Shown: in pieces, positions 18,656 through 23,081 of the stretch
Layout of the letters: every line of letters begins with the position of its first letter
Position numbering within the stretch: the stretch's first letter is position 1
Origin: Bacteroidota bacterium
GTDB lineage: Bacteria > Bacteroidota > Bacteroidia > Palsa-965
DNA: 55,650 nucleotides
Assembly: GCA_013298545.1 (NCBI GenBank)
Contig: JAAFIA010000022.1
Coordinates: 1-55,650 of the forward strand
Reading direction: 5' to 3'
The notes under the pieces: model-generated
Told to the model about the DNA's origin: nothing
What the model saw: only the letters and a program-made list of their open reading frames with translations
Databases searched by the model: none
Program-made: the position numbers and the translations under genes

Positions 18656-19510
18656 ATGACTAAAAAACTGATTAGTACTAACAAAACAGCCTTCGAGCAA
18701 CTTAGAAAAGTAGATGCAAATAACAATGAATATTGGTCTGCGCGTGATCTAAGTAGTGTATTGGAGTATTCCGAATTTCGCCATTTCAAACCCGTAATTG
18801 AACGCGCGAAGGAAGCCTGCAAAAACAGCAGCAATAAGGTTTCTGATCATTTCGAGGATATCCTCGATATGATCGAATTAGGGAAAGGTGCAAAGCGCGA
18901 AATTGATGATATCAAGTTATCGCGCTATGCTTGTTATCTGATTGTCCAAAACGCTGATCCGGGAAAAGAAATTGTAGCATTAGGGCAAACATATTTTGCG
19001 GTACAGACACGCTTGCAAGAAATTCAAAAAATGCAATCGTATCAGCAATTAAAAACAGAAGCTGAGAAAAGGATTTTTTTACGTAAAGAATTATCCGAGC
19101 ATAACAAACAACTGGCCGAGGCAGCCAAAAATGCGGGCGTGATTGAGCCTATTGATTACGCGATATTTCAAAATCATGGATATATGGGCCTGTATGGAGG
19201 GCTTGATGCCAAAGGAATACATGAACGAAAAGGACTAAAAAAGAGTGAGCATATACTTGATCACATGGGGAGTACAGAACTTGCAGCTAATCTTTTTCGT
19301 GCTACACAAACAGAAGAAAAATTAAGGCGCGAAAATATCAAAGGAAAAACCAAAGCCAATCAAACACATTTTGAGGTAGGAAAAAAAGTACGAAAAACAA
19401 TTCAAGAACTTGGAGGAACGATGCCCGAGAATCTTCCTGTTGCCGATAGCATAAAAAAAATCCAGAAAAAAACTGAGCCAAAAAAAATTGCCCCGAAAAA
19501 GAAAAAATAG
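18656..19510 (+). CDS. dinD: DinD-like DNA-damage-inducible protein
   Basis: A 284-residue homologue of the DinD family. The N-terminal part matches the family closely (NNEYWSARDLSSVLEYSEFRHFKPVIERAKEAC in pieces, SDHFEDILDMIELGKGAKRE, LSRYACYLIVQNADPGKEIV, GQTYFAVQTRLQE). It is followed by a coiled-coil-like region (~125-165), IFQNHGYMGLYGG, AKGIHERKGL and ELAANLFRATQTEEKLR. The last ~25 residues are a lysine tail. Escherichia coli DinD is SOS-induced and inhibits RecA strand exchange; the fold resembles phage Bro-N/antirepressor domains. A quasi-palindrome lies inside the gene and recurs behind it. The Shine-Dalgarno site and phage-like family hint at horizontal transfer (inference). Confidence 0.87.
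   Translation: MTKKLISTNKTAFEQLRKVDANNNEYWSARDLSSVLEYSEFRHFKPVIERAKEACKNSSNKVSDHFEDILDMIELGKGAKREIDDIKLSRYACYLIVQNADPGKEIVALGQTYFAVQTRLQEIQKMQSYQQLKTEAEKRIFLRKELSEHNKQLAEAAKNAGVIEPIDYAIFQNHGYMGLYGGLDAKGIHERKGLKKSEHILDHMGSTELAANLFRATQTEEKLRRENIKGKTKANQTHFEVGKKVRKTIQELGGTMPENLPVADSIKKIQKKTEPKKIAPKKKK
18845..18874. repeat. 30-bp near-palindrome inside dinD
   Basis: GATCAT and ATGATC arms enclose TCGAGGATATCCTCGA. One symmetric pair is mismatched. It encodes the family-conserved SDHFEDILDM segment. Its core, 18852-18875, is identical over 24 bases to the palindrome at 19547-19570. Confidence 0.9.
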
Positions 19511-19524
19511 ATCAAAAACCCAAT

Positions 19525-19591
19525 AAAATTAAGGCTTCCGATCATATCGAGGATATCCTCGATATGATCGGAAATTTCCGAAAAATTAAGG
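19525..19591. repeat. 38-bp perfect palindrome flanked by 10-bp direct repeats
   Basis: Positions 19536-19573 form a perfect inverted repeat centred between 19554 and 19555, with ends TTCCGATC/GATCGGAA and centre GGATATCC. AAAATTAAGG occurs at 19525-19534 and again at 19582-19591, bracketing the palindrome. Bases 19533-19570 match dinD 18838-18875 at 35 of 38 positions; one of the three differences makes the downstream copy perfectly symmetric. There is no T-run directly after the stem. It may be a regulatory site, a terminator-like structure or an inserted palindromic unit. Confidence 0.9.
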
Positions 19592-19694: not shown

Positions 19695-19937
19695 TCATTG
19701 ATTTCGTCCCATTGTTCCGCGCATGGCTAAAGCCATTTCATTGAAACGTGCTGTTACGTCATTTAAAAATTGCTCATCGACAAGCGTTTTGATGCGGTCA
19801 AATCCTTTGTAATCTTCCTCACTAAATTTATAGGTTTGCTCGAAAGGGCCTGCCTCAAACTTGATGAGGTATTTGGCATTCATCTGGAATACCGTGATCG
19901 TAAAATGTGGGTGAGGAATTTGTCCGGCAATACGCAT
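19695..19937 (-). CDS. Small conserved-looking protein of unknown function
   Basis: 80 residues, mostly predicted beta-rich then helical: HPHFTITVFQMNAKYLIKFE, QTYKFSEEDYKGFDRIKTLV and a C-terminal helix ending AMRGTMGRNQ. No family is recognised. It is the last gene of a tight minus-strand operon, starting 16 bases after the upstream stop codon. No signal peptide or membrane segment is visible, so it is probably cytoplasmic. Confidence 0.65.
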   Translation of the reverse strand: MRIAGQIPHPHFTITVFQMNAKYLIKFEAGPFEQTYKFSEEDYKGFDRIKTLVDEQFLNDVTARFNEMALAMRGTMGRNQ

Positions 19938-19953
19938 ATAGTTGATCTATCAA

Positions 19954-20379
19954 TTAAATTGGTGCAGAATAATAACCCGAAACATCCCCACTTTCATTGG
20001 AAACGTATTCGATGATTGCATTGGCAAGATCGGCATAGACATCAAACCCTTTAACACGAAGCCATTCCATAGCCTTTTTATCTTTGTTCACCGCATTGGC
20101 GGTAGCTGCCCAAAATACGCTATTGTATTGCATCAACCAACGAAAGGCATTTTTATCGCCACGCACGGCATTTGCAAATGCAGCTACTTCTAGGTGTTTG
20201 TGATCGATTAGCCAACGAAATGAAGCATCGCGGCCACTTTTTATACAAGCAGCACACTCAACTAGTTCGCGATAATTATTCTCGATGAGCCAATTGAATG
20301 CCGCCGAATTTCGCTCACCAAAAAGTAAGGTCATTTGCCGGATTGCGCTACCATGATAAGGTTTACTAATATCCGACAT
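19954..20379 (-). CDS. 25-residue-repeat protein B
   Basis: A 141-residue protein built of four units with pattern GDxxAxxWL...(8)...AxxANAV. The key tryptophans W30, W56, W81 and W106 are 26, 25 and 25 residues apart. Example units are GDKNAFRWLMQYN and KDKKAMEWLRVKG, each followed by ATANAV or DLANAI. The short two-helix unit does not fit ankyrin (33), TPR (34), Sel1 (36) or HEAT lengths; a degenerate helical repeat or protein-binding scaffold is the best guess. It is paralogous to the gene directly upstream, separated by 3 bases. No leader, no membrane segment. Confidence 0.75.
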   Translation of the reverse strand: MSDISKPYHGSAIRQMTLLFGERNSAAFNWLIENNYRELVECAACIKSGRDASFRWLIDHKHLEVAAFANAVRGDKNAFRWLMQYNSVFWAATANAVNKDKKAMEWLRVKGFDVYADLANAIIEYVSNESGDVSGYYSAPI

Positions 20380-20382
20380 GAT

Positions 20383-20760
20383 TTATTCTTCTTCAGCAAG
20401 TGATTTTTTGATGGCTTCCACCAATTGAATCCAAGCTTTATGGTTATTTTTCACCAGCCACTCCATCGAACGTGTGTCACCGAGAACTGCATGTGCAGCC
20501 ATCGCCATACGCGATTGTTTGCCATCAAACAATGCTTGAACAGCATGCGGATCGCCATAAACAGCCGTAATAAAAAGGCCCCATTCATCATGACCATTTT
20601 CGTGCAGCCATTCCAATGCACTATCGTCGTCATACCGAATCGAATCGTGAACCATCACTAATTCTTGACGGCCCTTGCGCTGCAATTCTTCTTGAGCACG
20701 ATCAGATCCGTTAATCGCATCTGCTAAATTTTTAACCAGTTGATCCGTAAGAAAAGCCAT
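20383..20760 (-). CDS. 25-residue-repeat protein A
   Basis: A 125-residue protein with four units of the same repeat as its downstream neighbour: DRAQEELQRKG, DDSALEWLHENGHDEWG, GDPHAVQALFDGK and GDTRSMEWLVKNNHKAW. Equivalent positions L26, W51, A76 and W101 lie 25-26 residues apart. The C-terminus is acidic (SLAEEE). The start MAFLTDQ at 20760 is chosen because it follows the stop codon of the zinc-ribbon gene by one base; the longer reading up to 20883 runs through that gene. Tight spacing implies translational coupling and a joint function with the zinc-ribbon membrane protein. Confidence 0.75.
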   Translation of the reverse strand: MAFLTDQLVKNLADAINGSDRAQEELQRKGRQELVMVHDSIRYDDDSALEWLHENGHDEWGLFITAVYGDPHAVQALFDGKQSRMAMAAHAVLGDTRSMEWLVKNNHKAWIQLVEAIKKSLAEEE

Positions 20761-20761
20761 T

Positions 20762-21868
20762 TTATTTTGTCTGTTGATAAATGTAAATACCTGCACCAAT
20801 AACAGCAAGGATACCAAGTACAAGGAATGTAATCTTCCATGCACTGTATGGACGTTCGCCCTGCACTTCGCCTGTGCGGCCATTGATCATAAAACGATAT
20901 ACCTTGTCTTTGTATTTGTATGCACTTAACCAAATTGGCAACAAAATATGTTTGAATGTAACCGCATTGTATTGTGTATCCAAGCTCAAAATCTGTTGTT
21001 CATCGCCACCAATGTCGGAACGGATTAATGCGCGAATTGGAGGATCCATGCGATCTTTCGCTTTTTCAAATGCTTCTTTTACACCAAGCTGATATTGTTC
21101 GGAAACAAAACCACTGATGAATTGCTCATTAAATCCGGTAAGTTGATGCAGATCCCATGGTTCTAATTCATTGACATATTTCTCTGGGAGCGAATTACTG
21201 GCATTGATCAACACATCATCAAACTTTCCATATACCGTTCCCGATGCTGGCGACCAACTTGTACGACGAACGCTTCGTGTTTGCGTTTGTCCATTTACGG
21301 TATATGTTTCTGTAACATAATAATGCGTTCCACGCATACCCGAATAACTAGTTACGGTTTCGGAATCGTATGTCCAGTATGGAATATACAGACCACGCAA
21401 ACGATCATTCTTTGCCGTCTTTTTCAACGCATTGGGTGCAAACCACAATTGGTGAATCCATTCCGAAAAAAGTTCCAAACTCTTCTTTTTATCGATTGAA
21501 AAAGGGAGCATATATTTCGGACGAATGATGTGTGAAACAGATCCCCCGCGAATAATGAGTGGTGTATCGCAAAACGGACAGGCATCGGAAGTAACGTTTG
21601 GGCGAAGCGAGGTCGAAGCACCGCAGTTATCACATTTAACCGTCGCAACATCCATTGTATCGGCTTGAGCAACGGCATTGTTGATGAATGTTTCAAAGTC
21701 AATTTCTTCGACTTCAACGGGCTTCATCTCTTCTGAAATATCATTTTTTGCGCCGCAGTATTCGCAAGCAAGACTACTTACACCTGGGTCAAAACGGAGC
21801 AATGCGCCACAATCATGACACTTTACTTTTTTCTCAACATCATGTGTTTTCTCGGAAAAGTCATTCAT
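20762..21868 (-). CDS. Double zinc-ribbon, C-terminally membrane-anchored protein
   Basis: A 368-residue protein. Two Cys4 ribbons are visible: VKCHDCG...CEYCG near residues 16-37 and VKCDNCG...CPFCD near residues 75-100. A middle domain of about 200 residues (RLRGLYIPYWTYDSET, HYYVTETYTVNGQTQTR, WDLHQLTGFNEQFISGF, LPIWLSAYKYKDKVYRFMINGRTGEVQG) precedes one C-terminal transmembrane helix (WKITFLVLGILAVIGAGIYIY). The layout resembles proteins often mislabelled as superfamily II helicase-like, and the YdjG partner of SPFH protein YdjI in Bacillus. ATG 21868 and ATG 21883 are both possible. It follows an SPFH gene and probably forms a membrane complex with it. Confidence 0.8.
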   Translation of the reverse strand: MNDFSEKTHDVEKKVKCHDCGALLRFDPGVSSLACEYCGAKNDISEEMKPVEVEEIDFETFINNAVAQADTMDVATVKCDNCGASTSLRPNVTSDACPFCDTPLIIRGGSVSHIIRPKYMLPFSIDKKKSLELFSEWIHQLWFAPNALKKTAKNDRLRGLYIPYWTYDSETVTSYSGMRGTHYYVTETYTVNGQTQTRSVRRTSWSPASGTVYGKFDDVLINASNSLPEKYVNELEPWDLHQLTGFNEQFISGFVSEQYQLGVKEAFEKAKDRMDPPIRALIRSDIGGDEQQILSLDTQYNAVTFKHILLPIWLSAYKYKDKVYRFMINGRTGEVQGERPYSAWKITFLVLGILAVIGAGIYIYQQTK

Positions 21869-21947: not shown

Positions 21948-23081
21948 TTATGCGATTGGCGGTGGCGGAGGAGGCGGAACTGCATTGAAGACAACCGCCA
22001 ATTCAGGCAATTGCCCTGCGGCTGTCCATGCAGCCATTCCTGCTTTCCAAACAAGGGTATCTTGTTTGAATGTTCCTGCTACGGCCATTTGTTGCAACGA
22101 TGCAATTGGAAACGGTCCTTGCTGTTGACCATTTACAGCCATGTAAAATTGTTCTACGGGCGGTGGTGGCGGTGGCGTATTTTGACCGGGTTGATTCATC
22201 GCACCAGTTTGCGGATTGAACTGGTTTTGTTGAAACATATTGCCCATTTGGTTGCCCATCGCAAAACCCATTCCCATACCAACTCCTGCACCAGCCATAC
22301 CGCCGGGATTATTGGCAGCAGCTTCCATGGATTGTGCCGCTTGAAACTGTGCATAAGCACCCAAATTGCCCACAATGCCCATACTCGTACGTTTATCAAG
22401 CACCTCTTCCACTTCTGGTGGCAACGAAATATTCTCAATGAGAAATTTCGTCATATCAATACCAATCTCGTTGAATTCTGGGTTCATTTTCTCATGAATG
22501 AATTTTGAAAATTCATCATAATTTGAAGCCATATCCAAAACTGGAATTTTGCTCGAAGCAACCGCATCGGTAAACCGTGTGATCACAATATTGCGAAGCT
22601 GCTCTGTAATTTCGTCTGTCGTAAACTCGCCATCTGTTCCAGCAATTTCTTTGATGAACAGTTTAGCGTCTTTTACTTTCATGGCGTACGAGCCAAACGC
22701 ACGAATACGCAACGGACCAAACTCTGGATCGCGCAACATAAACGGGTTTTTCGTGCCCCATTTTAGGTTGGTAAATTGTTTTGTGTTGACAAAGTAAACC
22801 TCGGCTTTGAACGGGCTGTTGAAACCATACTTCCATCCTTTGAGCGTGGTGAGGATAGGCATGTTTTGTGTTGTCAACTCGTACATGCCAGGCATAAACA
22901 AATCGGCAATTTGTCCTTCGTTAACAAACACAGCAACCTGTGATTCGCGCACAGTCAGTTTTGCGCCGTTTTTAATTTCGTTTTGATGACGTGGAAAACG
23001 CCAAACGATTGTGTCCTGAGTACTATCGGTCCATTCAATAATGTCGATAAACTCGCCTTTGATTTTGTCAAACAGTCCCAT
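21948..23081 (-). CDS. SPFH-domain protein (YdjI/virion-core type) with C-terminal GYF_2 domain
   Basis: A 377-residue protein without a membrane segment. Residues ~1-265 match the YdjI-type SPFH group: MGLFDKIKGEFIDIIEWTD, IVWRFPRHQNEIKNGAKLTV, ESQVAVFVNEGQIADLFMPG, LRIRAFGSYAMKV, LIENISLPPEVEEVLDKRTS and a helical AAQSMEAAANN region. A Gly/Met/Gln linker and proline run follow, then a GYF_2 (DUF4339) domain at ~315-370 (EQFYMAVNGQQQGPFPIASL, DTLVWKAGMAAW). SPFH proteins assemble scaffolds at membranes; the Bacillus relative works with membrane partners in PspA-type stress responses. Here the GYF_2 domain stands where the zinc ribbon of that relative would be. A promoter lies 49 bases upstream. 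Confidence 0.87.
   Translation of the reverse strand: MGLFDKIKGEFIDIIEWTDSTQDTIVWRFPRHQNEIKNGAKLTVRESQVAVFVNEGQIADLFMPGMYELTTQNMPILTTLKGWKYGFNSPFKAEVYFVNTKQFTNLKWGTKNPFMLRDPEFGPLRIRAFGSYAMKVKDAKLFIKEIAGTDGEFTTDEITEQLRNIVITRFTDAVASSKIPVLDMASNYDEFSKFIHEKMNPEFNEIGIDMTKFLIENISLPPEVEEVLDKRTSMGIVGNLGAYAQFQAAQSMEAAANNPGGMAGAGVGMGMGFAMGNQMGNMFQQNQFNPQTGAMNQPGQNTPPPPPPVEQFYMAVNGQQQGPFPIASLQQMAVAGTFKQDTLVWKAGMAAWTAAGQLPELAVVFNAVPPPPPPPIA

Follow-up and report, generated by a model that had tools for sequence, protein, structure and literature searches.

The window analysed here is the whole of a 55,650-nucleotide stretch (contig JAAFIA010000022.1, positions 1 to 55,650) from a Bacteroidota bacterium (assembly GCA_013298545.1). 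Its minus strand carries an inferred operon of five genes, separated by gaps of about 80, 1, 3 and 16 nt. The first gene (21948-23081) encodes an SPFH/Band 7 protein in which a proline- and glycine-rich linker leads to a GYF_2 domain at the C-terminus. GYF is a type of domain known to bind proline-rich peptides. The second gene (20762-21868) codes for a protein that has two zinc-ribbon-like CxxC...CxxC clusters and, at the C-terminus, a single hydrophobic segment that may lie in the membrane. The gene for P2 (20383-20760), a repeat protein of 125 aa, starts 1 nt past its stop, and another 3 nt separate P2 from the gene for P1 (19954-20379), a repeat protein of 141 aa. The two are distant paralogues, with 25% identity in alignment. 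The last gene (19695-19937) specifies an 80-aa alpha/beta protein without database match, for which AlphaFold2 predicts four strands and two helices (pLDDT 92.8). Structural comparison found no convincing relative for it, the best match being a profilin, with a Z of 5.8 and an rmsd of 2.9 over 64 residues.

Beside the operon, the region 18656-19574 of the plus strand holds a dinD gene (NCBIfam NF008573, E 1.1e-125). Its codons for VSDHFEDILDMI (18835-18875) make up a near-palindrome, and a 41-nt copy of it, 93% identical, is found at 19530-19570, 20 nt past the dinD stop, where 38 nt make a perfect palindrome. The genome holds no other place of this kind. Long palindromes of different sequence also occur near two distant dinD loci (L160 and L161).

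P1 and P2 each comprise four units, 25 residues in length, with a single spacing of 26 (W30-W56). In P1, unit 1 covers residues 24-49 (26 aa; W30; 20233-20310), unit 2 residues 50-74 (W56; 20158-20232), unit 3 residues 75-99 (W81; 20083-20157) and unit 4 residues 100-124 (W106; 20008-20082). In P2, the units are residues 20-44 (L26; 20629-20703), 45-69 (W51; 20554-20628), 70-94 (A76; 20479-20553) and 95-119 (W101; 20404-20478), all of them, as in P1, on the minus strand. A sequence-only reading had described two adjacent proteins built of 25-residue units; its coordinates were right, as was the spacing that it quoted for these eight residues. The period was confirmed by gapless BLOSUM62 self-comparison, where similarity peaks at offset 25 with a z of 5.0 for P1 and 5.4 for P2, a peak that 0 of 500 composition shuffles reached when maximised over offsets 20-40. 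The mean over 29 members of the family has peaks at offsets 25 and 50 only. Four divergent members (L018, L021, L022 and L027) show a weak period, or none, when each is taken alone. The consensus of 116 units, D-k-x-A-f-x-W-L-m-x-N-k/g-x-x-e-L-A-A-x-A-n-A-I/V-x-G, is 25 residues long, and leucine at position 8 is conserved in 97% of them, alanine at position 4 in 82% and tryptophan at position 7 in 64%.

The same units organize the predicted structure. The AlphaFold2 model of P1, made from a 29-row alignment (mean pLDDT 91.0, pTM 0.83), has nine helices, at residues 10-18, 25-33, 37-48, 51-59, 63-72, 76-84, 88-97, 101-109 and 113-130. The eight that come after the first are paired in step with the four units, each unit consisting of a first helix of about 9 residues and a second of about 10-12, the one followed by a turn and the other by a short turn; DSSP assigns alpha helices at both positions in the model. 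Helix A would start at the D/K position and bear A-x-x-W-L, helix B would bear E/L-A-A-x-A-N-A-I, and the linker from unit to unit would be a turn around G-D or N-K-D. In the model, the first helix (10-18) resembles the helix B of a unit that is missing, and serves as a cap. The protein would thus be a stack of four units with an N-terminal half-unit cap in front and an extended helix at the end, reaching residue 130 and followed by a flexible tail, of low confidence in the model. An alpha-solenoid, with an exact 25-residue tandem period in the sequence and, in the prediction, paired antiparallel helices in each unit stacking on the next, is a well supported fold. It is what the sequence-only reading had proposed in speaking of a compact two-helix solenoid, and the model of P1, with helices alternating in register with the units, supports it.

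Foldseek searches of PDB and BFVD with the P1 model turned up nothing at E <= 0.001. The best VIA-align match, a weak resemblance, was a designed PPR protein (Z 4.7, rmsd 6.9, 105 residues aligned); assignment to a single fold was rejected, this Z being shared with unrelated helical proteins. Short helical repeats align poorly, so that the lack of a fold match for a predicted structure of this kind is no proof of a new fold.

How did the pair arise? P1 and P2 are homologous and descend, as had been proposed, from duplication of a whole gene. The accompanying idea that units had also been duplicated inside each gene fares differently. Between proteins, units of the same position reach an average score of 31-41, a value somewhat raised by close relatives, as against 20 for different units within one protein, and each of the four units of P2 finds its best match in the same-numbered unit of other proteins. 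Since same-numbered units are the most alike across proteins, the four-unit architecture is ancestral, the duplication of units having preceded that of the gene. In the gene tree, the P1 orthologues make one group (100/98) and the P2 orthologues another (100/100). P1 is joined (90/96) by single-copy genes from several other families and stands apart from P2, which sits on its own long branch, with no firm placement of its deep position. Because P1 groups with those single-copy genes rather than with P2, the pair is old, or much diverged, and not a recent tandem duplicate. A third paralogue, with a glycine- or serine-rich C-terminal tail, is present at two loci of related genomes (L089 in G001:C40 and L090 in G004:C16), where it groups with single-copy genes of family f12.

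In its own genome, P1 and P2 are the only matches to the repeat family. Of 59 nearby genomes, 25 have relatives; a profile search detected them in 95 of the 295 genomes of the same class, usually as a single copy of about 136 aa. In an even sample of 395 genomes across the phylum the family appears in three, all belonging to that class, and a search of contigs with a 12-row alignment matched only uncultured Bacteroidetes MAGs. A match on a viral contig (L031) was rejected as a relative: the frame is methyltransferase-like and its single FNWLIENNY match is due to chance.

A recurrent neighbour of the repeat gene is the gene of the 80-aa protein. In 26 of the 54 genomes that have both, spread over five families, it sits downstream on the strand of the repeat gene, at a distance of 2-360 nt. 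The two genes co-occur with an odds ratio of 3.6 (Fisher p 1.3e-6), the genomes being related, so that p-values overstate the association. The 80-aa gene is found without the repeat gene in 54 genomes and the repeat gene without the 80-aa gene in 41; therefore neither strictly needs the other. P1 and the 80-aa gene, adjacent in other relatives, are separated in one (G006) by some 2.2 kb that include a long open frame (L068, 6939-9122). The zinc-ribbon and SPFH genes adjoin the repeat genes in the window and in G002, G004, G006 and G007, the SPFH gene alone doing so in G008; among the loci examined outside the family of the window, neither was seen next to a repeat gene. There, the neighbours are TonB-receptor-like, TfoX_N-like or pseudouridine-synthase-like genes. 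The TfoX_N-like gene (a weak assignment, E 0.065) is just upstream of the repeat gene at L076 (6549-6965), L077 (5335-5748) and L079 (6235-6639), which represent three families other than that of the window, and it overlaps the start of the repeat gene by 4 nt in two of these. Finally, the set is split in G004, P2 staying with the zinc-ribbon and SPFH genes at one locus (L091) and P1 with the 80-aa gene at another (L067), suggesting that each paralogue has partners of its own.

The upstream part of the operon brings to mind a known membrane system. In Bacillus subtilis, recruitment of PspA to the membrane requires the SPFH protein YdjI, which itself depends on the membrane proteins YdjG and YdjH (PMC8581546); a zinc ribbon is present in YdjG (PMC9239133). 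The window has the SPFH Band_7_1 domain expected of a Psp-like module of the YdjI/YdjG type (PF13421, E 6.5e-105) and, as in pspA-ydjGHI, an SPFH protein together with a zinc-ribbon protein bearing a membrane segment. By this content the operon resembles the YdjG-YdjI membrane module, with the difference that no repeat proteins are described in the B. subtilis operon, while the window has P1 and P2.

From these data we lean, by a small measure, towards seeing P1 and P2 as small cytosolic alpha-solenoid adaptors that bind proteins beside an SPFH membrane module, because a solenoid without recognised catalytic domain is found beside a recurrent small partner and, in the family of the window, such a module. 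The fold part of this proposal is well supported, as a prediction; the function and every binding event we infer from gene order. The solenoid protein would bind the 80-aa alpha/beta protein, and P2 or P1 would link the solenoid to the SPFH/zinc-ribbon membrane module. The repeat proteins might instead serve the 80-aa protein only, as its general partners or stabilisers, co-transcription with SPFH and zinc-ribbon genes being incidental. That five families have the 80-aa gene downstream of the repeat gene, when the SPFH/zinc-ribbon neighbourhood is restricted to the family of the window, speaks for this view, as does the location of the zinc-ribbon gene away from the repeat gene in many genomes. 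Yet in G004 it is with the SPFH and zinc-ribbon genes that P2 remains, without the 80-aa gene, and only 1 nt separates P2 from the zinc-ribbon stop in the window. We consider this explanation rather unlikely.

A different possibility is that P1 and P2 are diverged members of a family already described, DUF4116 (PF13475) or the leucine-rich variant (LRV) repeat (PF01816), and that their function follows that family. LRV units are about 24-26 residues long, with two helical segments, an alpha and a 3-10 helix. They share with P1 and P2 the short unit and its two helical segments, and the same self-comparison gives them a period near 26; they differ by their NPxTP-type motif, as opposed to the W-L and A-N-A of the P1/P2 family, and may differ by the alpha helices that the P1 model predicts for both segments. 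DUF4116, which has been modelled as an alpha-solenoid (PMC8078820), comes close as well: its model of 49 positions corresponds to two units, one Bacteroidota member shows a period of 25 by the same self-comparison, and an acidic residue opens the first helix, as in P1 and P2. It is, however, devoid of the A-x-x-W-L and A-N-A-I motifs. None of the 29 members matched either profile in the Pfam scan (hmmscan), and in profile-profile comparison the probability was 0.1% for each, the DUF4116 and LRV profiles being of only two sequences each. Membership in either family is very unlikely in our judgement.

The other classes of stacked helix pairs (TPR, PPR, Sel1, ankyrin, HEAT/armadillo) have longer helices and units of about 31-40 residues or more, compared with 25 here, a difference in length that had been pointed out from the sequence for ankyrin, TPR, Sel1 and HEAT; ankyrin, TPR, PPR, Sel1 and HEAT gave no Pfam match with P1, P2 or the 29 members. 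No acceptable match came from Pfam, NCBIfam, PHROGs, PADLOC or the PDB sequences, for P1, P2 and, where scanned, the aligned members; scattered matches to these collections were at chance level and were rejected as identities. An artificial repeated consensus matched many unrelated families in short pieces, and these matches were discounted because tandem repetition inflates scores. The suggestion that the solenoid was not yet catalogued therefore holds for the family, which no library matched, and not for its kind, since solenoids of short units, such as DUF4116, are known. P1 and P2 belong to one uncatalogued repeat family inside a known structural kind, widespread in one class of Bacteroidota.

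A role in immunity, defence or a mobile element, common among small paired paralogues of unknown function, has in its favour a weak, sub-threshold Imm49 score of the artificial consensus. It is highly improbable: the genes group in the tree largely according to host family, most genomes having a single copy, plasmid and phage matches (tblastn) and credible PADLOC matches are absent, and the neighbouring genes look chromosomal.

A more ambitious form of the adaptor proposal would make of this family the all-alpha two-helix solenoid with the shortest unit seen so far in bacteria, with a consensus of its own and four and a half units in fixed number, and a dedicated adaptor that in Bacteroidota joins the 80-aa protein to a membrane-stress module of SPFH type; taken as a whole, we regard it as unlikely. 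A compact, regular family with a clean 25-residue consensus would join the alpha-solenoid class, and be useful for the classification and design of repeat proteins. The operon also puts names on candidate partners, namely the 80-aa, SPFH-GYF and zinc-ribbon proteins, in a membrane module that has received little study in Bacteroidota.
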